A stretch of DNA of 46,611 nt from a virus, in IMG/VR virus record IMGVR_UViG_3300032156_000999, positions 1 through 46,611 of that record, one strand, 5' to 3'. The stretch's first letter is position 1. Each line of letters starts with the position of its first letter. The position numbers were made by a program, and so were the translations under genes. This document shows positions 15,041 to 27,679 of this stretch, piece after piece. The notes beneath the pieces are model-generated. The model made no database searches. It saw nothing but the letters and a program-made list of their open reading frames with translations, and was not told the DNA's origin.

Positions 15041-15303
15041 CATCGCACGAATTTGCCCTATTACCCCCTTTGTTGAGCGCGCATCAGGTGCGCGAACTGG
15101 GTGTCCCGCGCGGAGTGCTCTCCGCGGTGGCCGAACCCATTGCAAAATCGGACCAGCAGGTGCCATTTGGAAAGATCGGTTTCATCTGTCTGCCATCCAC
15201 CCGCGCCACATCTACGGGATTGAGCCGGAGACTTTATCTAAAGAGCCACGTCGCACGGTTCCTTGGCGATGACTTTTCGCAACCGCAAACTAGAAACCTA
15301 TGA
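15037..15303 (+). CDS. Hypothetical protein between terminase and portal
   Basis: An 88-residue unrecognised protein starting MTSHEFALLPPLL. The segment LLSAHQVRELGVPRGVLSAV could form a short helix-turn-helix-like pair of helices; the rest is Ser/Arg-rich. ATGA overlaps link it to terminase and portal, so it is probably made with the packaging proteins. Function unknown. Confidence 0.55.
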   Translation: MTSHEFALLPPLLSAHQVRELGVPRGVLSAVAEPIAKSDQQVPFGKIGFICLPSTRATSTGLSRRLYLKSHVARFLGDDFSQPQTRNL

Positions 15304-17564
15304 AAGACCAAGACCCCTATCGGATCATCAAAACGCCCGACCTGTCGTGGATCAATGACGAATTCCAGCGGGCCGGAGCAATCTCGCCCAACGCCGTGGG
15401 CCGCGACCGCGCGGACGACATCCGCTATTGTCGTTGGAAAGGTCGCAGCACGGATTACAAGAAACACCGCAAGTTGCTGGGATACGATCCGACACCGTGG
15501 GAAGACGGGTGGGACTCCCGGGTGTTCATTGCTGACGCAATCATCGAGGATTTGGGGGATGTGCTTTGCAGCGCGCTTAAACGGGCTCAGATCAGGTGCC
15601 GACCCACGGATGCAATGGACATGGAACGAGCAGCCAATGCCGAGAAAGTCATACAGAAATACGTCGAGCGTGATGGCGCGGCCATCTTTTCCGAGCTGGA
15701 ATTAGGGTGGCAATTCACCGCGTCCTACGGAGGCACTGCCGCCTATCAGATCACTTGGAACAGAGAACTTGCTCTTAAAATGGAGTGGGTGAAACTCGAA
15801 GAGGTGGTGAGCGCGGCTCAGCGTGCCGGGATAGCCCTGCAAAGCGGCCAGGTGCCACCTGAAATGATGGAGCAGGTTCAAAGGTTGATCGACCTGCCCA
15901 ACATCATCCTGGATCCCGCTTTGGAAGATGTGTTCGTGCAACTATTTCAGCAACGCGCCGCGGCGTTGGCGGAACAACTCTTTGCGGGAGAGATTGCTTC
16001 CTACGGCCGCGCATGGCTGAAAAACTACAAGGTGTCATCGTCCGTCGCCCGGCAGGTGGTGCGCGACTTGCGCGAAACGGGGTCCGGGCAATGGCCCAGG
16101 CCGTATCTCGTCTCGAACGCGCCGGAAGTGGTCGCCCGCGAGTTGGGTTTTGATTTCTTCCTGCCCCCGGAGGCGACCGATGTGGATCGGGCGTCGTGGA
16201 TCATGGTGCGGGAATTTCTAACCCCGGTCGAACTGGCCGCCGCCCAGGCGACCGAAGGATGGTCGAAGGAATGGGTGGATGAAGCCACCGAACACGCGGG
16301 AGAGACAACCATCTGGAGCGATCTCCAGGATCGCGCGACGGTGATGGAAGACGAGGAAAGCAGCACCTACTCGGCGCACGTCTTGCCGTCGAACACCGGT
16401 TTGGTCGAAGTCATCACCACATACATGCGGTGCATGAGCCGCGAAGGCATCCCGCAAATCTGGTGTACGGTCTGGTGTCCGCATGTCCTGACCGATGACC
16501 AGGGCGCGGACCTCTATGCGGCTCATTATGCCATGGACACTCCTGGGGCCTCATATCCGTTTGTCGGTTATCGCTGGCGCCGCAATCGGCGCAACGTCTA
16601 TTCCACACCGGGAATCCCGGCTCTAGTAGGAAGCGATCAGGCAAGCATCAAGCGCAGCACGGACATGCTGGTGGACCGACAGGATGTCGAAGTGAATCCG
16701 CCGTGGGTCACATCCATACGCCGCGGCCAGATTTTCAAAGCCAATCCGGGCAGTCAAATCCCGGTGCACCGCGGGCCGGACGAGTTAAGCCGAATGCCGC
16801 CACCCACCGGGAGCCCCCAACTGGCTTTCGAACTCATTCACCAGATCGAAGTGCGACTGGCTCGCCGTTTTGGTTTGTTTCATCCCGATGTCCCTCCAGC
16901 TCACACCCAGGCCAAACTTCAGGCTTTGGCCGACCGGTTTCTCCAGGCGGCGGCGGATGTGTTCCGTAAGATGCTTGGCCTGATTCAAAGCCAGGCCACC
17001 GACGAGGAACTGGCTCGCATCGCCGGCCCGAACGCCCAATTCCCGCGCACCAGCGAGGACATTGCGGGCGAATACGATGTGTCCTTACACTTCGATGTCA
17101 AGGATCTGGATTTCGATTACTCGCAGAAGAAACTGCAGAGCGTGGTGGAAATCTCGAAGGTACTTGATCGCTCGGGCTCAATCGACAGCAACGCGATGGT
17201 TCGGATTGCCTTGGGCGCGGTGGATCCGACACTCATTCAAGCGCTCTTGCCCGACCAAGGAGCGGCAGGCAAAGCGGTATTGGACCGGGTTAAAAATGAC
17301 ATGGCCCAGATGTTTCTGGGTGTGCCATTCGATCCGGTCGAAGCCGATCCCACGGCTCGGGCGCAACTCCAGTTCGCCGAACAAATCGTTCGGTCCAATC
17401 CCAATTACCAGGCCGGTCTGGGTCTCGTTCCCAACGCGCCAGGCAACGAACGGTTTACAAAACTGTTCGAGGATTGGAAGAAGAACCGCCAGCAAAGCGT
17501 AAAACAGGAAGAGAATGTGGCGACTGGCAGATTAGGCATAAACCCGCAGGAGATTGGCGCGTGA
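15300..17564 (+). CDS. Portal protein
   Basis: A 754-residue protein in the expected portal position after the terminase. It has an acidic, aromatic N-terminal part, long helices in the middle, the 'YPFVGYRWRRNRRNVYSTPGIP' block and a helical C-terminal half (QLAFELIHQIEVRLARRFG, FLQAAADVFRKMLG) as in P22-like and SU10-like portals. It would form the dodecameric ring at the packaging vertex and the base for the tail adaptor. ATGA overlap with the preceding gene and GTGA with the next. Call rests on size, composition and order more than on one diagnostic motif. Confidence 0.8.
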   Translation: MKDQDPYRIIKTPDLSWINDEFQRAGAISPNAVGRDRADDIRYCRWKGRSTDYKKHRKLLGYDPTPWEDGWDSRVFIADAIIEDLGDVLCSALKRAQIRCRPTDAMDMERAANAEKVIQKYVERDGAAIFSELELGWQFTASYGGTAAYQITWNRELALKMEWVKLEEVVSAAQRAGIALQSGQVPPEMMEQVQRLIDLPNIILDPALEDVFVQLFQQRAAALAEQLFAGEIASYGRAWLKNYKVSSSVARQVVRDLRETGSGQWPRPYLVSNAPEVVARELGFDFFLPPEATDVDRASWIMVREFLTPVELAAAQATEGWSKEWVDEATEHAGETTIWSDLQDRATVMEDEESSTYSAHVLPSNTGLVEVITTYMRCMSREGIPQIWCTVWCPHVLTDDQGADLYAAHYAMDTPGASYPFVGYRWRRNRRNVYSTPGIPALVGSDQASIKRSTDMLVDRQDVEVNPPWVTSIRRGQIFKANPGSQIPVHRGPDELSRMPPPTGSPQLAFELIHQIEVRLARRFGLFHPDVPPAHTQAKLQALADRFLQAAADVFRKMLGLIQSQATDEELARIAGPNAQFPRTSEDIAGEYDVSLHFDVKDLDFDYSQKKLQSVVEISKVLDRSGSIDSNAMVRIALGAVDPTLIQALLPDQGAAGKAVLDRVKNDMAQMFLGVPFDPVEADPTARAQLQFAEQIVRSNPNYQAGLGLVPNAPGNERFTKLFEDWKKNRQQSVKQEENVATGRLGINPQEIGA

Positions 17565-17842: not shown

Positions 17843-18291
17843 AGGATGCAACGAACCCTAGCGCACGCCAAAATATGCCCGCAACGCAGTGCTCGAATTA
17901 TCCACGGCGTCCAGTGAAATACCGTTTTCTGAGGAATGGGGAACATATTCTCCGAGGGGATGAATGGTTCGACGAACGCGATGCCACTTGGAATCCAACA
18001 ACTGAGGATAGTTGGGGCACGATCGTCGTAAAAGGCTTTCGATGCCGAAAAAAAATATGCAGTACGACGACAAGCAGCACCGTGGGGTTAAATGCTGGAG
18101 CACGGCGCGAGCGTGAGATGAAGCGCCTCAACCGCCTGCTCCGAGAATCCCAGGCTGAACTCATGCGCCTACGTGATGCAATCGAACGTGCGCTGTCCGA
18201 CTCGGAATCCGGCACAGGATGGGGGCCGGATGTTTCCGTGTGCTCATATCTTCGAGACGCGCTATCGCCGAACGACCAAGCTGAGCGATGA
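17839..18291 (+). CDS. Phage protein read into the first attC-like site
   Basis: A 150-residue frame. Residues about 26-72 (VKYRFLRNGEHILRGDEWFDER...) resemble small phage proteins of unknown function. A charged helical part (REREMKRLNRLLRESQAELMRLRDAIE, about residues 91-117) could be a coiled coil. The last residues PNDQAER and the stop are supplied by the first attC-like site at 18267, so the native end is altered or the last part is itself a cassette. A GTTAAAT at 18087-18093, which fits an integron core site, is one possible left junction; this is speculative. Confidence 0.6.
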   Translation: MKDATNPSARQNMPATQCSNYPRRPVKYRFLRNGEHILRGDEWFDERDATWNPTTEDSWGTIVVKGFRCRKKICSTTTSSTVGLNAGARREREMKRLNRLLRESQAELMRLRDAIERALSDSESGTGWGPDVSVCSYLRDALSPNDQAER

Positions 18292-18364
18292 GTGCCCCAC
18301 CTGAACCAATCGAATTTGCCGAGCGCGTCGCGGGGCACTCATTCGGTCCAGCGCCTGGTTCGGC
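18267..18364 (-). repeat. attC-like site 1
   Basis: Boxes gccgaac (18267-18273) and gttcggc (18358-18364). Inner stem ATGAGTGCCCC (18288-18298) pairs perfectly with 18332-18342. The overlapping stop-start ATGA is at 18288-18291, inside the stem. Same family as site 11. Confidence 0.85.
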
Positions 18365-18500
18365 ATCATGGCGTGGTGCGCTCAAAGAAGCTGCCTCTCG
18401 CCGCGACTTCCCGAGCCTGCTGTTTGCTGAAAAGTGGATTCGGTCACTTTCAAAAGCCGGACTGTATCCCCGCTGGTGGGGAGACGACAAAGGCGAATGA
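18288..18500 (+). CDS. Cassette protein with attC-encoded N-terminus
   Basis: A 70-residue unrecognised protein. Residues 1-26 come from attC-like site 1 and resemble those of the zinc-binding cassette protein at 21997. The cassette-encoded remainder (WRGALKEAASRRDFPSLLFAEKW...) has no Met, so translation depends on the start codon inside the site, which overlaps the upstream stop (ATGA). Short, basic and aromatic, with no membrane segment. The stop lies 3 bases before site 2. Function unknown. Confidence 0.6.
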   Translation: MSAPPEPIEFAERVAGHSFGPAPGSASWRGALKEAASRRDFPSLLFAEKWIRSLSKAGLYPRWWGDDKGE

Positions 18501-18502
18501 AC

Positions 18503-18607
18503 GCCGAACGACCAAGCTGACCGATGAGAGGGAGCGTGCCAACGACGTTCGATTGCAAGCTGCGGCTGCCCGCGCTCCCTCTCATTCGGTCCAGCGCCTG
18601 GTTCGGC
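18503..18607 (-). repeat. attC-like site 2
   Basis: Boxes gccgaac (18503-18509) and gttcggc (18601-18607). Stem arms GATGAGAGGGAGCG and CGCTCCCTCTCAT. ATGA at 18524-18527 opens a 31-codon frame that ends in another ATGA at 18616-18619, the start of the next cassette gene. Same family as site 15, but the inner ATG of that family is ACG here. Confidence 0.85.
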
Positions 18608-18615
18608 GTCCCGTT

Positions 18616-18897
18616 ATGAAACACAATCGTCATGGACACAACTGCCACGGTGTTGCTGTGGATGTATTCATGCAGATGGTCACGCGCCACCGCTGGGAAG
18701 AAGTCCGGGACGTATGGCCCGATGACTACAAAGCACCGACGATGGACACGCTGAAAATTGATTCATCATGGGCAGACCTGAGAAGCCAACAGAACATGAA
18801 TGGCCACGAGAAACAATGGATGCGCGAATACAAACAACTGTGCGCGAGACTTGGACCGTATGTGCCGAACGTCCCGGATCAGAGACCCGGCCAATGA
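18616..18897 (+). CDS. Cassette protein, His-rich N-terminus
   Basis: A 93-residue protein starting MKHNRHGHNCHG, with a His/Cys-rich first dozen residues that could bind metal. A soluble helical body with many Trp, Asp and Gln residues follows. The ATG lies 9 bases after the right box of site 2, and the last ~10 residues (NVPDQRPGQ type) and the TGA come from site 3. It is one of the few plus-strand cassette genes with its own start. Function unknown. Confidence 0.5.
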   Translation: MKHNRHGHNCHGVAVDVFMQMVTRHRWEEVRDVWPDDYKAPTMDTLKIDSSWADLRSQQNMNGHEKQWMREYKQLCARLGPYVPNVPDQRPGQ

Positions 18898-18955
18898 AAA
18901 CTTTGAATTGCAACCGAGACGCTATGGCCGGGTTCTCTGCATCCGGTTGTTCGAC
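18864..18955 (-). repeat. attC-like site 3
   Basis: Boxes gccgaac (18864-18870) and gttcgac (18949-18955). Arms CAGAGACCCGGCC and GGCCGGGTTCTCTG. ATGA at 18894-18897. Family shared with site 17. The variant right box gttcgac is matched by the left box gtcgaac of site 4, not by its own left box. Confidence 0.85.
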
Positions 18956-19195
18956 AATTTCGCAGCGAGGGCAGTCCGTCACTAAGACGTGCCGTGGGGT
19001 AGCCGAAACCTTCTCCGCGCAAGCGGTGACATGGCTCGGTAGAAATCGGGGCATTCGTGCCGTTATCCGGTTGGGAACACATCACGGGACTGAGCGACCT
19101 GGCCGAAAACTAAGCCGGCGCATGACACCAGCACTAACCAAATCATCGGCTCCAATGTGCGTTTGGGCACTGAAATGCCGGTGGGGTGTCATGTT
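18956..19195. other. Cassette with no convincing gene
   Basis: Cassette body between sites 3 and 4. The plus-strand frame from the ATG at 18894 stays open to 19259 but is Arg/Thr-rich and unconvincing. On the minus strand a 27-codon frame (19146-19063) starts MIWLVLVSC and looks like a signal or lipoprotein leader, yet stops early. That suggests a decayed gene. A 9-base inverted repeat (CATGACACC at 19121, GGTGTCATG at 19186) flanks the right part. Confidence 0.4.
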
Positions 19196-19318
19196 GTCGA
19201 ACGTCCAAGGTGAGCGGCGGCGTGGAAGCGCCACACCAGCAACGGAACGAAACCCATGAAAGATCCCAAACTATCACGAGAACGCGGGGAGGCCGTCCGC
19301 TCGACCGCCTTGTTCGAC
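19196..19318 (-). repeat. attC-like site 4
   Basis: Boxes gtcgaac (19196-19202) and gttcgac (19312-19318). ATGA at 19256-19259. Very similar throughout to site 12, except in the boxes. The loop start opens only a 22-codon peptide ending at 19324, because the following cassette carries its first gene on the other strand. Confidence 0.85.
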
Positions 19319-19319
19319 G

Positions 19320-19538
19320 TTATTTGAAAAGGAGCGAACACAATGAAAGCAAAAATGAACCAATGGATACCCAGATCGTTATCCAAGCTCGTCGGTTTGT
19401 TCCGGCGTTCTTCCGCTCGTCAATCACGTAGCGATGAGCGAGGCCATGATGGGACTCGGGCTTGTAGCCAGCAGCATCCCGGATCAGGTCGGTTGTGCTC
19501 TTATTCCGGGCTATTTGAAGGAAGTCATTCTCTGTCAT
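19320..19538 (-). CDS. Small tail-anchored membrane protein
   Basis: A 72-residue protein with a soluble charged N-terminal part and one C-terminal membrane helix (residues about 50-71, AWITIWVSIGSFLLSLCSLLF), so probably tail-anchored. Its layout and the motif SLCSL near the end resemble the cassette protein at 24109-24387, suggesting one family. On the minus strand its stop lies beside site 4. It shares the cassette with a divergent plus-strand gene. Function unknown. Confidence 0.6.
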   Translation of the reverse strand: MTENDFLQIARNKSTTDLIRDAAGYKPESHHGLAHRYVIDERKNAGTNRRAWITIWVSIGSFLLSLCSLLFK

Positions 19539-19546
19539 CGGATGAG

Positions 19547-19753
19547 ATGGATAGGATTAGAGAGCGATCCGCCAATTATGCGCGTTCACTGCTGGGAGGG
19601 AGCGACGAAGTGCCAATTGATGATCTTTCTGACCTGGGGATGATGTGTGTTGTGGATATTCCACGATTGCTGGCGCTGGTGCGGACATCGACGAACGTCC
19701 AAGTGGAGCGACAGCCGCCGACCGAAACCCAAACCGAAGGCACGCACCCGTGA
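19547..19753 (+). CDS. Small acidic cassette protein
   Basis: A 68-residue protein starting MDRIRERSANYARSLLGG, acidic in the middle (DEVPIDDLSDLG) and followed by the hydrophobic helix MMCVVDIPRLLALVR. It diverges from the membrane-protein gene in the same cassette. The frame is open back to 19343, but that part is antisense to the other gene. The final ~18 residues (NVQVERQ...) and the TGA come from site 5. Function unknown. Confidence 0.5.
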   Translation: MDRIRERSANYARSLLGGSDEVPIDDLSDLGMMCVVDIPRLLALVRTSTNVQVERQPPTETQTEGTHP

Positions 19754-19813
19754 ACTTCAAGCAACCGTCCAATGACCATGCGGGCGGCTGTTCGCTCGCA
19801 CGCCTTGTTGGGC
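19690..19813 (-). repeat. attC-like site 5
   Basis: Boxes gacgaac (19690-19696) and gttgggc (19807-19813). The right box fits the classical GTTRRRY core and is matched exactly by the left box gcccaac of site 6. The stop-start overlap here is GTGA (19750-19753). Arms of the family GTGGAGCGACAGCCGCC / GGCGGCTGTTCGCTCGC shared with sites 6, 7, 8 and 16. Confidence 0.85.
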
Positions 19814-19821
19814 CTTTCAAG

Positions 19822-20127
19822 TTAATGCGGTCCCTCAGACTGTTCATAATGGCCGTCAGGATAATAGACGAATACCAAAGGTGGGAAGCCGGGCCGGGCC
19901 GGCTCGTATCCGTAACAAATCTTTTCATTGACCCGCTGTGCCACCTCACACATGACGGTGTGCATCCATGCCACGTACTGTGGGATAATCTTCGAACTGC
20001 GGCGTCCCTCCCATTGCGCACGAAGCCAATGCGCGCCGCTTGGAGCCTTCTTAAACACGGCGTAGTCTATCTTGATCGTGACCGATGCGCCGTCAAAGGC
20101 CGCGTAAAATGTTGCTTCATCGCTCAT
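19822..20127 (-). CDS. Cassette protein, soluble, 101 residues
   Basis: Unrecognised soluble protein starting MSDEATFYAAFDG, with alternating beta-like segments (VTIKIDYAVFKK), a helical centre and an aromatic, Pro-rich end (FPPLVFVYYPDGHYEQ). Its start is 24 bases from the box of site 6 and its stop 9 bases from site 5, so it fills its cassette in the canonical sense orientation. The plus frame across it is open because it lies codon-on-codon opposite; the minus reading has the more protein-like composition. Confidence 0.6.
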   Translation of the reverse strand: MSDEATFYAAFDGASVTIKIDYAVFKKAPSGAHWLRAQWEGRRSSKIIPQYVAWMHTVMCEVAQRVNEKICYGYEPARPGFPPLVFVYYPDGHYEQSEGPH

Positions 20128-20150
20128 ACGATCAATGGCGTGATGGAGTG

Positions 20151-20273
20151 GCCCAACGATCAAGTGGAGCGACAGCCGCCGACCCAAACTCAAACCGAAG
20201 AAAGAAACTCATGAACTCATACAACGTCATAACGACCGCGCTGGCGGCTGTTCGCTCGCACGCCTTGTTAGCC
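20151..20273 (-). repeat. attC-like site 6
   Basis: Boxes gcccaac (20151-20157) and gttagcc (20267-20273); they do not pair with each other but with the boxes of sites 5 and 7. ATGA at 20211-20214. Same family as sites 5, 7, 8 and 16. Confidence 0.85.
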
Positions 20274-20294
20274 GTTCTCGACACGGCCCACAAA

Positions 20295-20636
20295 CTACTT
20301 CTTGCTTGCTGGTGCAGCGTCATGCTGATTTGTCTGTATGGTCTGTGGCTGTGCGGAACCATCCTGTTTGAGCATTATTCCGGTCTGTACCAGCGCCGTC
20401 GCCAGAAGTCCGAAAGTGAGAACCGCCAGAAACCATGTGAGGGCGACAATGCGCCTGGTTTGCCGATCCCCCTGCCGGGTGAGAATCGCCTGGATCGACG
20501 CAAATTTTCGAATGGCGGTGATCAAAGCAATAGTGTTGGCCTTCGGATTTCCAGCCGATGTGCCTTCCATTGCAAGGCGGTCAAGTTCGTCAAGCAGTGC
20601 GTCTATTTCCTTGGAAAGGTCGTTATGTTTAGACAT
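20295..20636 (-). CDS. Small membrane protein with charged N-terminal helix
   Basis: A 113-residue protein. An acidic helical N-terminus (MSKHNDLSKEIDALLDELDRLAMEG) is followed by a basic helix, one membrane segment at about residues 63-90 (IVALTWFLAVLTFGLLATALV) and a hydrophilic Gln/Ala tail. It probably sits in the inner membrane with a cytoplasmic coiled-coil-like domain. Start 11 bases from site 7, stop 21 bases from site 6: canonical cassette packing on the minus strand. Function unknown. Confidence 0.65.
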   Translation of the reverse strand: MSKHNDLSKEIDALLDELDRLAMEGTSAGNPKANTIALITAIRKFASIQAILTRQGDRQTRRIVALTWFLAVLTFGLLATALVQTGIMLKQDGSAQPQTIQTNQHDAAPASKK

Positions 20637-20647
20637 ACTCAAAATAC

Positions 20648-20741
20648 GGCTAACGACCAAGTGGAGCGACAGCCGCCACCCCCGACACGATGAAAGCCCA
20701 CGACTCAACTGGCGGCTGTTCGCCCGCACGCCTTGTTCGGC
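20648..20741 (-). repeat. attC-like site 7
   Basis: Boxes ggctaac (20648-20654) and gttcggc (20735-20741). ATGA at 20690-20693. Nearly identical to site 16 except for the left box (gccgaac there), which instead matches the right box gttagcc of site 6. This is what exchange of cassettes at the box predicts. Confidence 0.88.
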
Positions 20742-20744
20742 GTC

Positions 20745-21005
20745 TCATTTCGACACGATCCATTTTGGTGCCTCATGAAAGAATAATACTCTGTACGGAA
20801 CCTTCAGCCTATCGGCGAGTGCTAGGGCGCCACAGAGAGCGGACAACCCACTTTCTGCGGGAAGCTGCCAGCAGCCTTCGGATGGCTGGATGGCTCCTGG
20901 AAGCTGCCTGGCCATATTTTCGAGATGGGCCAGTACTTTGGATCTGTTGTTCTCTTCTGCGGTGGCTTCAGCCGCCACAGGAAATGCGACAAGTATCGAA
21001 TCCAT
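20745..21005 (-). CDS. Cassette protein, 86 residues
   Basis: Unrecognised soluble protein starting MDSILVAFPVAAEAT, with a helical centre (KVLAHLENMARQLPG), a Cys-containing Gly/Ser part and a Leu/Arg/Val-rich end (LKVPYRVLFFHEAPKW). An AGGA 9 bases upstream fits a ribosome binding site. Start 13 bases from site 8 and stop 3 bases from site 7. The opposite-strand frame is open too but has the Arg/Leu/Trp/Cys bias of an antisense reading. Confidence 0.55.
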   Translation of the reverse strand: MDSILVAFPVAAEATAEENNRSKVLAHLENMARQLPGAIQPSEGCWQLPAESGLSALCGALALADRLKVPYRVLFFHEAPKWIVSK

Positions 21006-21018
21006 GTGAAAATCCTAC

Positions 21019-21144
21019 GCCGAACGATAGAACTGAGCGACAGCCGCCGACAGAAACGGTGGAGCGCAGAAAGGACTCACGATGAACACAGAACTTTGGA
21101 ACGGAGAAGCGGGGCGGCTGTTCGCTCCAGTGACCTTGTTAGCC
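21019..21144 (-). repeat. attC-like site 8
   Basis: Boxes gccgaac (21019-21025) and gttagcc (21138-21144), the latter matched by ggctaac of site 9. ATGA at 21082-21085 with AAAGGA upstream as a possible ribosome binding site. The plus-strand frame from here runs open to 21528, mostly antisense to the next gene. Confidence 0.85.
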
Positions 21145-21198
21145 TTCCTGTCTCTTTTCGTAGTCAGCTTCATCCTCATCGGGTTGCCTTTGGGTCAC

Positions 21199-21474
21199 CT
21201 ACTCGGAGTGCGGCGGGCGCGCCGAGAGTTGGCCCACGATCTGCGCCGCCCGCGTGTTGACCATGTTCCGAAACTCGGTGAAGATCGAATGCCACTCGTC
21301 GTAAACCTTGCGGCGAAGCTCTGCGTCGGCTATCGCCTGCTCTTTCTGAAAAGCAAGCTGCTGCTCCAGCAGGCGCTGCTGAAAACGATAGGTCAGACGA
21401 CACGACAACCAAGCACCGAGCAATGTGCCGAGAGCGATGCTCCCAGCCCCAGCAAAGAAAACTTCGTATGTCAT
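21199..21474 (-). CDS. Membrane-anchored coiled-coil protein
   Basis: A 91-residue protein with an N-terminal membrane segment (residues about 3-25, EVFFAGAGSIALGTLLGAWL) and a long charged helix (about 26-75, FQQRLLEQQLAFQKEQAIADAE...) likely to form a coiled coil in the cytoplasm or periplasm. Its start is 17 bases from site 9. Composition strongly favours this strand over the open plus-strand frame. Similar architectures occur in lysis accessory and scaffold-like membrane proteins, but no function is assigned. Confidence 0.65.
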   Translation of the reverse strand: MTYEVFFAGAGSIALGTLLGAWLSCRLTYRFQQRLLEQQLAFQKEQAIADAELRRKVYDEWHSIFTEFRNMVNTRAAQIVGQLSARPPHSE

Positions 21475-21491
21475 AGTGATGTGCGAATGCA

Positions 21492-21588
21492 GGCTAACGA
21501 CCAAGATCAGCCACGGATGCCCCTATGAGAACTCTCGACTTTAGAAATGCGTGGCGGGGCATCCGTTGGCTGCATCGCCTTGTTCGGC
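21492..21588 (-). repeat. attC-like site 9
   Basis: Boxes ggctaac (21492-21498) and gttcggc (21582-21588). Arms CAGCCACGGATGCCCC and GGGGCATCCGTTGGCTG. ATGA at 21525-21528. The only site of its loop family in the array. Confidence 0.85.
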
Positions 21589-21755
21589 CTTGGCATCATC
21601 ACTTCATAATCCTCCGAATTGGCAGAACGACAATCTGGGTGTTCCCATTTTGGTGGGGTGAATACGAAACATGCACGGGGCAAAGCATCGGCCCGATAAG
21701 CTGGGTGCGTAGGCCGAACGACCAAGCTGAGGCACGGCGAGACCCAAGCCCATGA
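21525..21755 (+). CDS. Short aromatic cassette protein with attC-encoded ends
   Basis: A 76-residue protein. Residues 1-21 are encoded by site 9 and the last ~10 (NDQAEAR...) by site 10. The cassette-encoded centre is rich in His, Trp, Phe and Ile (HHHFIILRIGRTTIWVFPFWW), has no Met and may be partly membrane-inserted. Start and stop codons both lie in attC sites and both are ATGA overlaps. Function unknown; it could be a non-functional filler. Confidence 0.5.
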   Translation: MRTLDFRNAWRGIRWLHRLVRPWHHHFIILRIGRTTIWVFPFWWGEYETCTGQSIGPISWVRRPNDQAEARRDPSP

Positions 21756-21804
21756 ATAAACCTGAGACCAAACCCGAGCCGTTGCCTCCAGCGGATGGTT
21801 CGGC
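21713..21804 (-). repeat. attC-like site 10
   Basis: Boxes gccgaac (21713-21719) and gttcggc (21798-21804). Arms AGCTGAGGCACGGC and GCCGTTGCCTCCAGC. ATGA at 21752-21755. Family shared with site 13; the loop encodes the KPEPLPPADGS-type leader. Confidence 0.85.
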
Positions 21805-22000
21805 GTCATCTACCAATTTTCCCGGCATCTGGTGCTGCACGGCACGACTCGAATGCAAGTGGCAAGGATTCGCGCTCAACCACGGATTGGCATGGGGAAC
21901 AGTGCCGCATCCACTTGACCCGTGGAGGAAATACCACGAGAGGGCCTGCCCTGGACAGCTCGTGCAACTCATGCCGCCGAACGATCAAGCTGAGCGATGA
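21752..22000 (+). CDS. Cassette protein with attC-encoded leader, 82 residues
   Basis: Residues 1-18 (KPEPLPPADGS type) come from site 10 and the last 7 (NDQAER) from site 11. The cassette-encoded middle is Trp/Cys-rich (IWCCTARLECKWQGF, AWGTVPHPLDPW) and may bind metal through three Cys, but no clear finger is seen. The first internal Met is near the end, so the start must be the ATG in site 10. ATGA overlaps at both ends. Function unknown. Confidence 0.6.
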   Translation: MNKPETKPEPLPPADGSASSTNFPGIWCCTARLECKWQGFALNHGLAWGTVPHPLDPWRKYHERACPGQLVQLMPPNDQAER

Positions 22001-22073
22001 GTGCCCCATCCCATATTGCCGAATTGCCAAGCAGCGTGGCGGGGCACTCATTCGCTCCAGCGCCTGGTTCGGC
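21976..22073 (-). repeat. attC-like site 11
   Basis: Boxes gccgaac (21976-21982) and gttcggc (22067-22073). Stem ATGAGTGCCCC (21997-22007) pairs with 22041-22051, as in site 1. ATGA at 21997-22000 within the stem. Confidence 0.85.
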
Positions 22074-22359
22074 GGATCGTCCACAATGCGGATCATGCCA
22101 CCGGGAGATGACGCCACAAAACTCATCGCAATGCCCTGAACTTTTCCTCTGCGATGACTGTGCAACGCTCGCGGCTATCCCGGCGCGGATGCTGCAAACC
22201 GACTGGCTGCGCCTCCACCGCGAGAACCAAGCCATGCGCGTGGAAATTGATGGGCTGAAGGCCAAGCTGCTCGTTGAACGCATCAAGGGCCTGACGCCGA
22301 ACGACCAAGGTGAGCGGCGGCCTGGAAACGCCGCTCCAACAATGAAAGGAAACCCATGA
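21997..22359 (+). CDS. Zinc-ribbon-like cassette protein with coiled coil
   Basis: A 120-residue protein. Residues 1-26 are attC-encoded. Residues 31-55 carry C31-x2-C34 and C52-x2-C55 with an extra C46, a zinc-ribbon-like arrangement. A charged helix (LRLHRENQAMRVEIDGLKAKL, about 71-91) suggests a coiled coil. A Met inside the finger (38) cannot be the start, so the ATG of site 11 is used. The tail (NDQGERRPGN...) is from site 12. Possibly nucleic-acid or protein binding; function unknown. Confidence 0.65.
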   Translation: MSAPSHIAELPSSVAGHSFAPAPGSADRPQCGSCHREMTPQNSSQCPELFLCDDCATLAAIPARMLQTDWLRLHRENQAMRVEIDGLKAKLLVERIKGLTPNDQGERRPGNAAPTMKGNP

Positions 22360-22418
22360 AAGATCCCAAATCATCAAGAGAACGCGGGGAGGCCGTCCGC
22401 TCGACCGCCTTGTTCGGC
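22296..22418 (-). repeat. attC-like site 12
   Basis: Boxes gccgaac (22296-22302) and gttcggc (22412-22418). ATGA at 22356-22359, preceded by AAAGGAAA as a good ribosome binding site. Close copy of site 4 apart from the boxes. Confidence 0.85.
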
Positions 22419-22451
22419 GTCTGGGTGGAATACGATAAAGCCAAGTGCGCC

Positions 22452-22700
22452 TCAATCATCGGCCCAGCCGTCATCCTCAGCCATCAAGCACGCGAACGCA
22501 CGCAGCATGGCCAGTTCCTCGGCTGGAATCGGATCCGTGCCAAGATCACGGACTGCAAGGTACAGATGATGGAGGCACTTCAATCCTCGTGGCGTCCAAT
22601 GCACAGCAAACTTGCCCTCGTGGTCCGCCAACTCCGTGGCCCATCCAGCCCGCATGGCGCGCTCACCCGTCTTTTGCATCAAGGGCGTCACCTTATCCAT
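22452..22700 (-). CDS. Cassette protein, soluble, acidic end
   Basis: An 82-residue protein starting MDKVTPLMQKTGERAMRAGW, with helical segments, a 'HEGKFAVHWTPRGLKCL' centre and an acidic C-terminus (CLMAEDDGWADD). Balanced composition and confinement between sites 12 and 13 (start 14 bases from site 13's box, stop 33 from site 12) support it over the open plus frame, which lies codon-on-codon opposite. I recall similar small proteins from cassette-rich genomes but cannot name a family. Confidence 0.6.
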   Translation of the reverse strand: MDKVTPLMQKTGERAMRAGWATELADHEGKFAVHWTPRGLKCLHHLYLAVRDLGTDPIPAEELAMLRAFACLMAEDDGWADD

Positions 22701-22714
22701 AAACGTGCAAAACC

Positions 22715-22806
22715 GTCGAACGACCAAGCTGAGGCACGGCGAGAAAGAGACCCATGATTGAAACCAAGACCCAACCCGAGCCGTTGCCTCCAGCGGATGG
22801 TTCGGT
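22715..22806 (-). repeat. attC-like site 13
   Basis: Boxes gtcgaac (22715-22721) and gttcggt (22800-22806). The unusual right box is matched exactly by the left box accgaac of site 14. ATGA at 22754-22757. Family shared with site 10. Confidence 0.87.
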
Positions 22807-22981
22807 GATTCTGGTGCGCGCCATGCACCGGGCCGCTGTTGCTCGGAGGGTTAAATCTGGCAACCGATATGATCCAGAGGACCACCTTATCGCACTTGCC
22901 GATGAGGTTCTGCGACTCCGCAGGCTACTCGCCGATTCACCGAACGACCAAGCTGAGCGGCGCGAGTCCAAGATTCTATGA
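22754..22981 (+). CDS. Cassette protein with attC-encoded leader, 75 residues
   Basis: The leader (residues 1-17, QPEPLPPADGS type) comes from site 13 and the tail (NDQAERRESKIL) from site 14. The cassette-encoded centre is an amphipathic charged helix (HRAAVARRVKSG, DEVLRLRRLLADS) and may be a small helical DNA- or protein-binding unit. Both ends are ATGA overlaps. A Met at about residue 24 could be an alternative start. Function unknown. Confidence 0.6.
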   Translation: MIETKTQPEPLPPADGSVILVRAMHRAAVARRVKSGNRYDPEDHLIALADEVLRLRRLLADSPNDQAERRESKIL

Positions 22982-23046
22982 CGAAACGAAAGCAACGAAC
23001 TGACGACCAGCACTCCCGAGCGTCCGCTCCAGCGCCCTTGTTCGGG
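22939..23046 (-). repeat. attC-like site 14
   Basis: Boxes accgaac (22939-22945) and gttcggg (23040-23046). ATGA at 22978-22981. Arms GAGCGGCGCGAGTCC and ACTCCCGAGCGTCCGCTC pair imperfectly. The only site of its loop family. Confidence 0.83.
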
Positions 23047-23050
23047 GTAC

Positions 23051-23311
23051 CTATCTGGCCTCCGCAGGTGCCGCAAAACCTAATGGCGCCTGACCCGGCT
23101 GCGGCGTATCGAACATTTGGACAACCTGCCTGTGAAAGTTCGCAGCAAGTATATGCTCGAGTGCTTGATCAGCAGCGACCTTTTCGATCGTTCCGAGTGC
23201 AAAGTAGCTTTTGCCAAACATCTCCCGGGCACAGTGCAGCGACGCCAAGAAGTAAAGCTCGGAGGAAATCATCCTGAGCATGTGTTCATCGAACGTGTAT
23301 TTATGATCCAT
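23051..23311 (-). CDS. Cassette protein, helical, 86 residues
   Basis: Unrecognised protein starting MDHKYTFDEHMLRM, mostly helical (ELYFLASLHCAREMFG, KVAADQALEHILAANF), with a Pro/Ala/Gly-rich tail. It fills the cassette between sites 14 and 15 on the minus strand (stop 4 bases from site 14, start 21 bases from site 15). The plus strand here is broken into two frames, which favours this reading. No ribosome binding site is evident. Confidence 0.6.
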   Translation of the reverse strand: MDHKYTFDEHMLRMISSELYFLASLHCAREMFGKSYFALGTIEKVAADQALEHILAANFHRQVVQMFDTPQPGQAPLGFAAPAEAR

Positions 23312-23332
23312 AGACGTAATAGTGTACTGCCG

Positions 23333-23435
23333 CCGAACGACCAAGCTGAGCGATGACGGGGAGCGCGCAAATGACCTTCGATTGCAACGTGGACGCACCG
23401 CGCTCCCCGTCATTCGCTCCAGCGCCTTGTTCGGC
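23333..23435 (-). repeat. attC-like site 15
   Basis: Boxes gccgaac (23333-23339) and gttcggc (23429-23435). Stem GATGACGGGGAGCG pairs with CGCTCCCCGTCAT. ATGA at 23353-23356. A second ATG at 23371 follows GGGGAG (23358-23363), so the stem arm also carries a ribosome binding site. Confidence 0.86.
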
Positions 23436-24015
23436 GTTCAGGTGTATCGTCTCCGATCCTCCTTGGGAATATCCCGAAGGCTTCAACTCGCAGCCGCACG
23501 CGCACGACGGGCCAATCACGCATGACAAGCCGCTGCCGTATCCATCAATGACGGTGGAGGAAATCTGCGCGCTCCAGGTCTCCGCGCTCGCCGCCAAGGA
23601 CTGCCGACTCTGGCTGTGGACGACGGGCCGATACCTGCCTTATGCGTTCACAGTGATGAAAGCCTGGGGCTTCCGATACCGGCAAACGCTCGTCTGGCAC
23701 AAGCTCGACGGAAACATGGGCGGCGGGGTAGCTCCAAACTCTGCCGAGTTCCTGCTGGTGGGCGTGAAAGGAAACCCGCCGATCAAATCGAAGCTAAAGC
23801 AGTCGGTGTTCGCGTTCGCGAAAAGCGCGAAGCACTCGCGCAAGCCGAAGGAATGGCTGTGGCTCATAGAGCAGGTGGACGATGGGCCACGCTTGGAAAT
23901 GTTCGCTCGCCGGAAGCGTCCCGGCTGGCACGTCTGGGGCAACGAACTCGCCAACGACGTTGAACTGCCGCCGAACGACCAAGTGGAGCGACAGCCGCCA
24001 CCCCCGACACAATGA
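23353..24015 (+). CDS. MT-A70-type adenine methyltransferase (cassette 1)
   Basis: A 220-residue N6-adenine methyltransferase of the MT-A70 type. The catalytic DPPW is at residues 35-38, followed by the Rossmann-like elements LWLWTTGRYLPYAFTVM, GFRYRQTLVWHK, the 'PRLEMFARRKRPGW' end motif and WGNE. It would methylate adenine in DNA, perhaps shielding phage DNA from restriction. The first ~27 residues are encoded by site 15 and run straight into FRCIVSDPPW; the body lacks its own start. The tail after DVEL (PPNDQVER...) is from site 16. ATG 23371 with GGGGAG is an alternative start. Confidence 0.85.
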   Translation: MTGSAQMTFDCNVDAPRSPSFAPAPCSAFRCIVSDPPWEYPEGFNSQPHAHDGPITHDKPLPYPSMTVEEICALQVSALAAKDCRLWLWTTGRYLPYAFTVMKAWGFRYRQTLVWHKLDGNMGGGVAPNSAEFLLVGVKGNPPIKSKLKQSVFAFAKSAKHSRKPKEWLWLIEQVDDGPRLEMFARRKRPGWHVWGNELANDVELPPNDQVERQPPPPTQ

Positions 24016-24063
24016 AAACCCACGACTCAACTGGCGGCTGTTCGCTCGCACGCCTTGTTCGGC
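23970..24063 (-). repeat. attC-like site 16
   Basis: Boxes gccgaac (23970-23976) and gttcggc (24057-24063). ATGA at 24012-24015. Nearly identical to site 7 (GTGGAGCGACAGCCGCC / GGCGGCTGTTCGCTCGC arms), differing mainly in the left box. Confidence 0.87.
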
Positions 24064-24227
24064 GATTACTGAATCTGGATACTGAGATCATCGCCGTAAT
24101 AAGCGTCGTCATCTCGGTGCTGGCGCTGGCGCTGCAAGTGTGGGCGTTCCATGAGATGCACCGCGCGCGCGAGGCGCATCGCTCATATTCCACACTGACA
24201 AACCTAGAGAACACAAGGAAACAATGA
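24012..24227 (+). CDS. Small membrane protein with attC-encoded N-terminus
   Basis: A 71-residue frame. Residues 1-18 are from site 16. A very hydrophobic segment (about 25-46, IIAVISVVISVLALALQVW) then gives one membrane helix, followed by a charged tail. The body has no Met before the helix, so the start is the site's ATGA. It overlaps the minus-strand gene 24109-24387 by 119 bases; the two hydrophobic segments do not coincide. Both may be expressed, or only one is real. It ends in a further ATGA at 24224. Confidence 0.45.
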   Translation: MKTHDSTGGCSLARLVRRLLNLDTEIIAVISVVISVLALALQVWAFHEMHRAREAHRSYSTLTNLENTRKQ

Positions 24228-24387
24228 ACGCAGCCAGAGCCAACCACCGAGACAGTCGCGTTGACCGACGCTCTAACTCCAGTTTGGCGGCTATATGCCG
24301 TGGCGAGGTGGGTTTGTCGCCCGCGATCAACTCAATCAGAAGGCGCCGTGAGTGCCCCCTGAAGTCATCAAGTTCTTGGTCGGTCAT
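24109..24387 (-). CDS. Tail-anchored-like small membrane protein
   Basis: A 92-residue protein starting MTDQELDDFRGHS. A charged helical part (LLIELIAGDKPTSPRHIAAKL) is followed by a membrane segment (LALAAFIVSLCSLGLSVW) and a low-complexity tail. The order of parts and the SLCSL motif match the cassette protein at 19320-19538. Start 15 bases from the box of site 17, stop 45 bases from site 16, the normal packing of sense cassette genes. The low-complexity tail may be read antisense to the plus gene. Confidence 0.6.
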   Translation of the reverse strand: MTDQELDDFRGHSRRLLIELIAGDKPTSPRHIAAKLELERRSTRLSRWLALAAFIVSLCSLGLSVWNMSDAPRARGASHGTPTLAAPAPAPR

Positions 24388-24402
24388 ACGTGTTACACTT
24401 TC

Positions 24403-24494
24403 GCCGAACGCTTCGGATCAGAGACCCCGCCCATGATGACTCTCGATTGCAACCAAGACGCGAAGGCGGGGTTCTCTGCATCCGATTGTTCGGC
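24403..24494 (-). repeat. attC-like site 17
   Basis: Boxes gccgaac (24403-24409) and gttcggc (24488-24494). Arms GGATCAGAGACCCCGCC and GGCGGGGTTCTCTGCATCC. ATGA at 24433-24436. Same family as site 3. Confidence 0.86.
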
Positions 24495-25068
24495 ATTTCG
24501 GTGTATCGTCGCTGACCCTCCGTGGTGGTATAACCGCGACTGGGATGGAAGCTCTGGTAGAGGCTCACGCGGGCTGGTGCTTGGTGGTCGGTCAGTCGCG
24601 ATGCCATACGAGCAGATGAAGCTGGACGCAATCAAGGCGCTCCCAATCGGTTCAATGGCTGCTGAACAGTGCGACCTCTACCTGTGGGTGACTCAGAAGT
24701 ATCTGCCGGACGCCTTCGATGTTCTCGACGCTTGGGGCTTCCGCTACTGCCAAACGCTGACCTGGTGCAAGACGCCACGCGGCACGGGCCAAGGCGGACT
24801 CTACTGCCCGACAACCGAGTTCCTGATTCTGGGGCGCAAGGGAAAGATGCCCGACAAGAAGCGCGTGGACTCGACCTGGTGGAACGTGAAACGCCCGCAC
24901 AACTGCCACAGCGCGAAACCGGAGTTCTTCCAGGATATGATTGAGGCCATGAGCGACGCTCCCCGCCTCGAACTTTTCGCCCGCCGCAAACGGCTCGGCT
25001 GGCATCACTGGGGCAACGAAGTCGCCAGTGACGTAGAAATGCCGAACAAGCATTCAACCGAAACTTGA
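24433..25068 (+). CDS. MT-A70-type adenine methyltransferase (cassette 2)
   Basis: A 211-residue adenine methyltransferase of the MT-A70 type. DPPW is at residues 28-31; LYLWVTQKYLPDAFDVLDAWGF, YCQTLTWCKT and the PRLELFARRKRLGWHHWGNE ending align with the other cassette methyltransferase, but overall similarity is moderate, so it is not a recent duplicate. It also starts inside an attC site (17) and its body has no start codon before FRCIVADPPW. The stop is in or just after the terminal half-site. A longer frame upstream is not preferred because of the ATGA at 24433. Confidence 0.85.
   Translation: MMTLDCNQDAKAGFSASDCSAFRCIVADPPWWYNRDWDGSSGRGSRGLVLGGRSVAMPYEQMKLDAIKALPIGSMAAEQCDLYLWVTQKYLPDAFDVLDAWGFRYCQTLTWCKTPRGTGQGGLYCPTTEFLILGRKGKMPDKKRVDSTWWNVKRPHNCHSAKPEFFQDMIEAMSDAPRLELFARRKRLGWHHWGNEVASDVEMPNKHSTET
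25041..25060 (-). repeat. Terminal half attC-like site
   Basis: A box gccgaac (25041-25047) matches the right box of site 17, followed by AAGCATTCAACCG and then unrelated sequence with no partner box. It marks the right end of the array, as if the rest of the site, and any attI and integrase beyond it, had been lost, or as if this were the original insertion core. Confidence 0.6.
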
Positions 25069-25071
25069 CAG

Positions 25072-25365
25072 ATGCACGGGGATTGGAAAGGACCGTTCCG
25101 TAGGCGGATGCAACGTCGAGCATCGGAACGCGGGCGTCGTATGGCCGCTCGCAGATGGGCACTGGATCGCCAACGCCGCCAAAGGTTGGCCGCACTCAGG
25201 ACCGACCAATACCCGAACGCCATCGTTAAACGCATTGTGGTCATCTGGCACGAACGAGTTGTGCGTGAAACCACGATACGCACCTGGGATTCCGTCCGCG
25301 AAGCCCGACGCAAGGAACGAATGTGTCTGGCCCCGCTCGTAAATTCGACGATTACTGCCTCCTAA
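25072..25365 (+). CDS. Arg-rich hypothetical protein
   Basis: A 97-residue, very basic protein (MHGDWKGPFRRRMQRRASERGRR start) with a core 'RTDQYPNAIVKRIVVIWHERVVRETTIRTWDS' that looks like a small beta domain and a charged tail. It starts 3 bases after the methyltransferase stop and is the first gene right of the array. It could be a phage gene or an outer cassette whose attC was lost. Basic composition hints at nucleic acid binding. Not recognised. Confidence 0.55.
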   Translation: MHGDWKGPFRRRMQRRASERGRRMAARRWALDRQRRQRLAALRTDQYPNAIVKRIVVIWHERVVRETTIRTWDSVREARRKERMCLAPLVNSTITAS

Positions 25366-25478: not shown

Positions 25479-25530
25479 CTGAGTTTGCGCCCAAGAGCAA
25501 ACCCTGTTGCCCACTTGCTGGGCCAAAAGC

Positions 25531-26646
25531 ATGTCAAAGCAGTTATCATCTGCCCCGGATCCCGTGGCTCCGGCGCCAGCGACCAGCAAAGGTCGCGCTG
25601 GCGAATCGCCCGCGCCCGTTGCGGCCCCGCAGGCCACCAGCGATGAGGCGACGCTGAACGCCGATCTGCTCGAAGCGATCAGCGAGTTGCCCAGCCTGGC
25701 GTCTGAGACGCCTCCAGAACCCGATGCGGTTGAACCCGAGGTAGTGGCGACCGAAGGACCCGCCACCGCCGAGGATGATGCCGCCTCTGAATCCATTACC
25801 TCCGATTCCGACGAACCCAGCGAACCCGAGACCGAACCCGAGGAGGATGAAGCGGCCCGGAAAGATTGGCCGGTCAAGGCCAAGCGGCGTCTATCGAAAC
25901 TGGTTAAACGGGTGAAAGCACTCGAAAGCCAGCTCGAAGGGGCCGACCAGTTGCGTGTGGAACGTGACCGGCTCCAGGCCGAACTGGCCAGCGCCCAGAC
26001 GCCCCCAGAACCGGCTCCAGCCGAATCCGCCCCGGCGCCAGAAGCCGCCCAGGCGCTTCCGCCCGGAGCGATCACAGCCGAAGAAGTGCGACGCGCGAGC
26101 GTGATCCAGAAGCTCACAGATGCTATCGCAAACATCGACAAGCATCCAGAAGGGATAACGGTCGATGGCGAGGAGTTATCTGCCGAGTATCTGACCCAGT
26201 TGCGTGAGCAATGGGTCGAGCAGCGTCTGATGGAGCGGCTCGAATTGCGGCAACACCGCGAACGAGTGGCTGCCTACGGGCAGAAACTGAACGCGGAAGC
26301 ATCCGAGCAACATCCATGGCTGAAGAACAGGGCCGATCCTCGCACACAGCAACTCGAACAGATCCTGGTCGCCTATCCGGGCGCCCGGAATTTTCCCGGT
26401 ATGCGCAAGGTGCTGGCCGACGCGATCGCTTATGAGGCGCTCAGGCAGGCCAAGGCCAAAGGCAACGGTTCGGCGCCACGCTCGGTCACTCCGCCACCGC
26501 GACAACCGGCTCGGCCGGCCGCGGCTCCGGCCGAGACGACACCCGCGAAGCCGAATCTCGGCGCGAAGTTCAAGAAATACGAGGGCAGTGGATCCAATGC
26601 AGACCTGGCCGATTTAGTGCCAGACCTGATCGAGACACGCGACTAA
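25531..26646 (+). CDS. Capsid scaffolding protein
   Basis: A 371-residue acidic protein directly before the major capsid gene. Residues 1-110 are Pro/Ala/Glu-rich and disordered. A coiled coil follows (about 115-150, KRRLSKLVKRVKALESQ), then another Pro-rich linker, a helical region (about 185-300) and a basic Pro-rich tail ending before DLVPDLIETRD. This profile and place fit a scaffold that guides procapsid assembly and is then removed. The ATG at 25531 is preferred over a TTG at 25507. Function is inferred from position and composition. Confidence 0.75.
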   Translation: MSKQLSSAPDPVAPAPATSKGRAGESPAPVAAPQATSDEATLNADLLEAISELPSLASETPPEPDAVEPEVVATEGPATAEDDAASESITSDSDEPSEPETEPEEDEAARKDWPVKAKRRLSKLVKRVKALESQLEGADQLRVERDRLQAELASAQTPPEPAPAESAPAPEAAQALPPGAITAEEVRRASVIQKLTDAIANIDKHPEGITVDGEELSAEYLTQLREQWVEQRLMERLELRQHRERVAAYGQKLNAEASEQHPWLKNRADPRTQQLEQILVAYPGARNFPGMRKVLADAIAYEALRQAKAKGNGSAPRSVTPPPRQPARPAAAPAETTPAKPNLGAKFKKYEGSGSNADLADLVPDLIETRD

Positions 26647-26674
26647 ACCAGCGTCCTTCAGGAGATTACAACAA

Positions 26675-27679
26675 ATGCTTTTGGAACGTAACCAGGTTGG
26701 AAAGCGCGAAATGCTTGCCAACATCATCTCGCGTGTCGATGCCAAGAACACGCCAGTAACCAGCATGATGGGGCGAGGTGAATCCCTATCCAACATGCTG
26801 TTCGAGTGGCAGATGGACGATTTCGAGTCCCCCGGCGAAGTGGCCGTGGAAGATGGAGTCGATGTCGATACCTTCTCGAACGCTTCCCCGAACCGAACCC
26901 GGGCTTCGATGTATGCCATGAAGATGCGCGACTCGGCTATGGTCTCGGATCTGGCGGAAAACGTGAGCGACGTGGCCGGTTTGAGCAAAGGCGAGCTGAG
27001 CGAGTCGATCATGAAGAAACTCAAGCGCCTGGCCCGCTGCATCGAAGCCTACATCTGCGGCGACCAGGATGCCCAACAAGGCGGAGCCGGCGTGGCCCAC
27101 AAAAGCCGTGGGCTCGGTTCATGGATTCAGACGGCAGCCCAGGGCGTCCTGCCCGTAGCCGCCGCGTTCCGCACGCCGGCCGCCAGTATCACAGCCGCAC
27201 CCACGGGAGGGCTAACCGAGGCCAATGTGAACACTGTTCTGGCCAGTATTTACGGCCAGACCGGCACAATCACGGATTTCAGATTTCCGTGCGGGCCGAC
27301 GCTGCGTCAGGTCTTCAGCACCTACACGCGCAGCGCGGGGGTGGGCGCCGGCACCACCAATCGCAGCTACAACACCAACTTCAACGGGACGGTCTCGAAC
27401 GTGGTGAACATTTTCGAGGGGGATTTCGGGACGTTGCACGTCATTCCCACCTTGTGGAATGCCGTCGAGTTGGCCGCTTTCGGTTCGCCTGCGGCGGGCA
27501 GCAACTTGTGCCGGGGTTACGCGCTCGATCCGAGCCTGCTGAAACTCCATTACAAGCGCCTGCCGCGCGTCAAGGAGTTGGAGGATCGCGGTGGAGGTCC
27601 ACGGTTTCTCGTGGATGCCATTCTCGGCTGGAGCGTGCTCAATCCGCTCGGCCTGGGAAAATTCAACGCGACCACATGA
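26675..27679 (+). CDS. Major capsid protein (SU10/DUF5309-like)
   Basis: A 334-residue HK97-fold-type major capsid protein. The start 'NQVGKREMLANIISRVDAKNTPVTSMM', the acidic Val-rich segment after it, 'NRTRASMYAMKMRDSAMVS' and the 'ALDPSLLKLHYKRLPRVKELEDRGGGPRFLV' C-terminus agree with capsid proteins of the SU10-like/DUF5309 group. A strong Shine-Dalgarno (CAGGAG, 26659-26664) stands 10 bases before the ATG, one of the clearest in the late operon, as expected for the most abundant virion protein. Confidence 0.85.
   Translation: MLLERNQVGKREMLANIISRVDAKNTPVTSMMGRGESLSNMLFEWQMDDFESPGEVAVEDGVDVDTFSNASPNRTRASMYAMKMRDSAMVSDLAENVSDVAGLSKGELSESIMKKLKRLARCIEAYICGDQDAQQGGAGVAHKSRGLGSWIQTAAQGVLPVAAAFRTPAASITAAPTGGLTEANVNTVLASIYGQTGTITDFRFPCGPTLRQVFSTYTRSAGVGAGTTNRSYNTNFNGTVSNVVNIFEGDFGTLHVIPTLWNAVELAAFGSPAAGSNLCRGYALDPSLLKLHYKRLPRVKELEDRGGGPRFLVDAILGWSVLNPLGLGKFNATT

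Follow-up and report, generated by a model that had tools for sequence, protein, structure and literature searches.

A 46.6-kb virus record (46,611 nucleotides; hereafter the window, meaning the whole stretch of DNA analysed), which encodes a phage tyrosine recombinase, DnaB, terminase, portal-like and major head proteins, carries two genes read as MT-A70-type adenine methyltransferases (MTases). The locus raises the questions of whether both genes are mobile cassettes through which a phage could change its DNA methylation, as the original prediction proposed, and of how genes in such an arrangement would be translated.

Two diverged MT-A70 methyltransferases

Both predicted open reading frames (ORFs), MTase1 and MTase2 (Table 1), were found to be complete and positive for PF05063, with Pfam E-values of 3.2e-27 and 4.1e-24 and bit scores of 96 and 85.9 against a curated cut-off of 23.9, which places them in the family over the whole domain. 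The match covered the full length of the model (1–172 of 172) and DPPW was common to both, in agreement with the intact MT-A70 core that had been claimed; phrog_359 ('DNA methyltransferase') also matched both (E = 3.3e-51 for MTase1 and 9.4e-45 for MTase2). Pairwise alignment of the two enzymes revealed the expected divergence after DPPW (EYPEGFNSQ... versus WYNRDWDGSSGRGSRG...). Because they share 45% identity and a tree places them in separate groups with support of 99/96 and 100/99, the view that they are unlike recent duplicates holds, and recent duplication of one MTase was ruled out on the same grounds. A single cassette clade is not formally rejected by the AU test (p = 0.10).

In a 26-member alignment DPPW was near-invariant and K158, R180, W189 and G190 were invariant. 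Missing substrate-binding residues on structure prediction, named beforehand as the outcome that would speak against the prediction, were not seen, since DPPW, the C-terminal K and R and the SAM-side WGNE are conserved in both window MTases. AlphaFold models had a mean pLDDT of 81 for MTase1, with residues 1–20 near 50, and 79 for MTase2, and both matched METTL3 and the Tetrahymena MTA1 DNA methyltransferase complex (MTA1c) in the PDB. Among orthologues, dN was 0.23–0.27 against a dS of 0.94–1.16 for MTase1, and 0.24–0.26 against 1.3–2.8 for MTase2; because dS exceeds dN about 4-fold or more (dN/dS of about 0.1–0.25, purifying selection), both MTases are probably functional.

A CALIN that ends in two methyltransferases

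The two genes belong to an array of 17 attC-like sites that all share one orientation. Bottom-strand folds of the sites contained an R box, an unpaired spacer, an L box, one-sided extrahelical bases and a variable loop; the AAC/GTT cores were conserved, many sites having GCCGAAC/GTTCGGC and not the strict RYYYAAC/GTTRRRY consensus. A covariance model, built from the 17 window sites and then run on the window and on other phage contigs, detected no further attC in the window and matched dozens of sites in the other contigs. The only known RNA family found at the repeats, MIR156, was rejected as a sub-threshold chance match. No integron integrase (IntI) was found in the window, where the tyrosine recombinase is of the XerC/phage type and falls far below the integron integrase cut-offs, and nine related records gave no match to TIGR02249; a phage-encoded integron integrase was thus ruled out for the window recombinase and for these nine records. 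With at least two attC and no IntI, the array is a CALIN and not a complete integron, and any movement of its cassettes would need IntI in trans.

Table 1 Coordinates of the array, its methyltransferase genes and the flanking structural genes in the window.
Feature	Position	Strand	Basis and remarks
Portal-like protein	15300..17564	+	phrog_332; order conserved in G008, G009 and G010; left of the array, late operon
CALIN, 17 attC	18267..24494	+	Repeats, paired cores GCCGAAC...GTTCGGC, bottom-strand folds, covariance model
attC sites 1–6	18267-18364, 18503-18607, 18864-18955, 19196-19318, 19690-19813, 20151-20272	+	
attC sites 7–12	20648-20741, 21019-21144, 21492-21588, 21713-21804, 21976-22073, 22296-22418	+	
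attC sites 13–17	22715-22806, 22939-23050, 23332-23435, 23970-24063, 24403-24494	+	
attC upstream of MTase1	23332..23435	+	Crossover G^TT between 23429 and 23430; in-frame ATG at 23353 and 23371
MTase1, MT-A70	23353..24015	+	Pfam, alignment, model; likely start ATG 23371; stop inside its own 3′ attC
MTase1 cassette, crossover to crossover	23430..24057	+	Paired attC cores
attC at 3′ end of MTase1 cassette	23970..24063	+	Paired cores, fold, covariance model
attC upstream of MTase2	24403..24494	+	Crossover between 24488 and 24489; in-frame ATG at 24433 and 24436
MTase2, MT-A70, last array gene	24352..25068	+	Pfam, alignment, model; likely start ATG 24433 inside attC
GCCGAAC, R″-like remnant at MTase2 3′ end	25041..25047	+	Sequence
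Scaffold-like ORF and major head protein	25507..27679	+	phrog_1328 for 26675-27679; same order in three relatives; right of the array

Only for MTase1, which lies between two attC, does this arrangement bear out the proposal that both genes are mobile cassettes. MTase2 has an attC upstream and an R″-like GCCGAAC at its 3′ end, with no covariance-model match after 24496; lacking a 3′ attC it cannot be excised alone and resembles an immobile cassette at the end of the array. The companion idea, that methylation changes by cassette exchange, stands in so far as both MTases lie in a cassette array, but not as a capacity of the phage itself: no IntI is encoded and a host IntI would be needed.

The cassette ORFs scanned with Pfam had no known domain, and no restriction endonuclease was seen among them. 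In several cassettes the best-looking ORF lies on the minus strand, counter to the array (22452-22727(-), 23051-23413(-) and 24109-24387(-)). The attC at 20648-20741 and 23970-24063 are near-identical (95%) and those at 18864-18955 and 24403-24494 are similar (82%), each following an unrelated gene, which suggests that cassettes exchange their attC or that attC become joined to new genes.

Acquisition of the array and related cassettes in other phages

Records G008, G009 and G010 have head proteins 55–59% identical and the same portal–scaffold–head order, and in two of these records terminase was also seen in this order. Their portal–scaffold interval holds only small ORFs over about 0.8–1.5 kb, and no attC was found in it by the covariance model; given this attC-free counterpart of the locus, the array is, by comparison of gene orders, an acquired insertion in the structural operon, between portal and scaffold. 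Directly after the last cassette lies a 97-aa ORF (25072-25365), a 66% homologue of which (L120:1317-1574) follows the last attC of the unrelated record G007; it is possibly a boundary gene of such arrays.

The original prediction called for a search for further MTase cassettes in related arrays, and orthologues were indeed found in attC arrays of other phages: those of MTase1 (65–75% identity) in G001/G002 and G003, and those of MTase2 (about 70% identity) in L135, L136, L138 and L006. Except for a 37% DnaB match in G002, no backbone genes shared by the window and the orthologue-bearing records were detectable. From orthologous cassettes in phages without other common genes we infer that the MTase cassettes moved between phages. 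A bacterial donor was sought and rejected, a species-wide genome scan having returned only 30–42% relatives and the best plasmid match being 41%.

Two of these records, G001 and G002, are ~100% identical over ~37 kb (3 mismatches) and differ in one array block adjoining the MTase (G001:1-1053 versus G002:18235-18907). As the break sits in an R″ box at a contig end and not at the canonical crossover, this variation is suggestive only and no proof of IntI action; the difference may stem from illegitimate recombination or from assembly.

attC sites appear to supply the start codons

No in-frame ATG, GTG or TTG occurs between the crossover G^TT and DPPW in MTase1, MTase2 or the G002 orthologue, and the usable starts of these three genes lie only inside or upstream of the preceding attC. 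The preceding attC would therefore supply the start codon and the N-terminus, and in both window MTases, a feature that the original prediction had not noted, it appears to encode the start and the first 20 or so residues, joined at the crossover as MTFDCNVDAPRSPSFAPAPC followed by SAFRCIV... and MMTLDCNQDAKAGFSASDC followed by SAFRCIV.... The first predicted strand of the domain (β1) begins about 3 residues past the crossover in both models. In the alignment, relatives outside cassettes mostly start 8–16 codons before DPPW, and the cassette members are extended there. Orphan phage MT-A70 MTases (phrog_359; Gordonia, Rhodobacter and Vibrio phages) share the catalytic domain at 35–40% identity. 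Unlike the cassette enzymes, most of the relatives aligned from outside arrays begin with a native N-terminus that is short. MTase2 might also start from a GTG immediately ahead of the attC, at 24352, and the attC would be translated with either start. A GGGGAG stands shortly upstream of ATG 23371, and a purine-rich stretch precedes several attC ATGs. In the mRNA the attC forms a very stable hairpin (−47 to −62 kcal/mol) that partly overlaps the start region of MTase1, so translation could be weak.

The same layout was found in L135, L136 and L138 and, for other MTase families, in L005 (Methyltransf_11-like) and L006 (N6_N4_Mtase). A GTG lies three codons before DPPW in L135, L136 and L138, and its use would remove the first strand; in the other-family genes of L005 and L006, NTG codons are also present past the crossover. 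An in-frame, stop-free ATG in attC was present in all eight MTase cassettes checked, seven of which have crossover phase 2; a universal cut phase for all attC was ruled out, as phases 0, 1 and 2 all occur. The MT-A70 gene of L006, a relative of MTase2 outside these eight, has its own ATG past the crossover, which shows that a start in attC is not required. A DNA pattern search for further start-less MTase2 heads returned only the two contigs already known.

Across the window array and other contigs with matching attC, we counted the attC in which an ATG begins a frame that stays open for 40 codons or more past the crossover, with the mirror strand and 300 shuffles of the loops as controls. In the window 14 of the 17 attC qualified; the mirror strand yielded 4 of 17, and the shuffles averaged 5.6 (maximum 9 in the 300). 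The window sites group into about 10 families of related sequences, so they do not count as independent and their effective number is smaller than 17. In the other contigs 19 of 32 qualified, against 11 on the mirror strand and a shuffle mean of 8.9. When only the loops of the MTase attC were shuffled, the product was 0.004, a weak test because the conserved stem holds some of the MTase starts; that no starts occur downstream argues more strongly.

A proposed mechanism and its alternatives

We consider the following account, taken as a whole, likely. A CALIN without integrase, inserted between portal and scaffold and ending in two MT-A70 lineages, would be co-transcribed with the structural genes, with the late promoter in the role of the integron Pc. 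Translation would begin in the loop or the stem of the attC and continue across the R′ arm into the cassette, so that the enzyme would carry a disordered tail, encoded by attC, that it can do without. Both enzymes would methylate adenines of the phage DNA late in infection, before packaging, and this methylation would shield the DNA from host restriction; an anti-restriction role is plausible for both. A host integron integrase acting in trans could add or exchange cassettes, as long as the attC newly placed upstream is in the correct reading phase.

The attC ATGs might instead be incidental to an ordinary phage CALIN, with translation starting at unusual codons just past the crossover or by reinitiation and with the attC peptide devoid of functional meaning. 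Phage CALINs with MTases are known, for example in Polaribacter phage P12002L, and their attC are recombined by IntI1, according to Qi et al. 2023 (PMC9892861). Like the present array, those described there combine phage attC without IntI, MTase cassettes and a proposed anti-restriction benefit; unlike them, it has 17 attC, MTases of the MT-A70 family and MTase starts inside attC. In the annotation of P12002L, gaps of about 100 nt separate the MTase genes. Initiation by other means also has a precedent: ORF-11 of attI1 and short ORFs within attC sites are known to help translation, mainly by termination–reinitiation (reviewed in PMC8876359). There, as here, a frame in the recombination site crosses or nears the crossover and aids the next cassette, but in the present case the attC frame continues into the enzyme, whose only start codon it provides. 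The L006 relative of MTase2, which uses its own ATG, fits incidental attC ATGs as well. Against them stand the lack of any in-frame NTG before DPPW in MTase1, MTase2 and the G002 orthologue, the predicted position of β1 so close to the crossover and the stop-free attC ATG shared by every one of the eight cassettes, and we regard this explanation as rather unlikely.

The role assigned to the enzymes could also be mistaken, in that they might act on RNA or single-stranded nucleic acid, or as regulatory 6mA enzymes, and not as anti-restriction DNA MTases. The best structural matches include METTL3, an RNA enzyme, together with MTA1c, a DNA enzyme; yet phage homologues are annotated as DNA methylases and the other MTases in such arrays (Dam, N6_N4_Mtase) are DNA enzymes, which makes such activities unlikely. 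Decay is a further option: a fossil array from a bacterial integron, its cassettes silent and its MTases unexpressed, would agree with the missing IntI, the lost 3′ attC of MTase2 and the lack of known domains in the scanned cassette ORFs. We judge this highly unlikely in view of the low dN/dS, the intact motifs and full-length frames, the retention of MTases in several phage lineages and the purine-rich sequence ahead of several attC ATGs.

attC as a possible coding and recombination module

At L135:1347-2420 (IMGVR_UViG_3300025601_000164), a single open frame runs from a Dam domain through an attC (1761-1851) into an MT-A70 domain and is, as read from the frame, a natural fusion of two methyltransferases through a recombination site. 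Fused cassettes such as blaGES-1/aacA4 arise by attC loss (PMC4670013). Both cases place two cassette genes in one unit, but in L135 Dam and MT-A70 are joined through an attC that is still recognised by the covariance model. It is possible, and we put it forward only tentatively, that attC is a module for both coding and recombination, that start-less cassettes are translatable only if they are inserted in phase after an attC of this kind and that in-frame fusions such as Dam–attC–MT-A70, created by recombination, amount to a natural device for shuffling protein domains.

What appears to be new is the attC-encoded start architecture, MTases in phage CALINs having already been published; no report of attC-encoded start codons or N-termini of cassette enzymes was found in the literature searched, most subscription papers lying outside it. 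If confirmed, the architecture would mean that the preceding attC decides whether, and in which frame, the next cassette gene is translated, that attC recombination would make fusion proteins in nature, and that the expression of promoterless, 5′ UTR-less genes from an array in a phage late operon is explained. It also suggests a route by which phages could swap DNA-modification enzymes against restriction.

Two further observations concern G002. A tyrosine recombinase (G002:29641-30060, 349-aa frame) that is not matched by the integron integrase model lies ~450 bases past the last attC, and the attC array also contains a core replication gene, that of a DnaB helicase with an intein-like LAGLIDADG insertion (L116:13812-16325). 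The DnaB ORF has an ATG in attC, and downstream starts may also serve.
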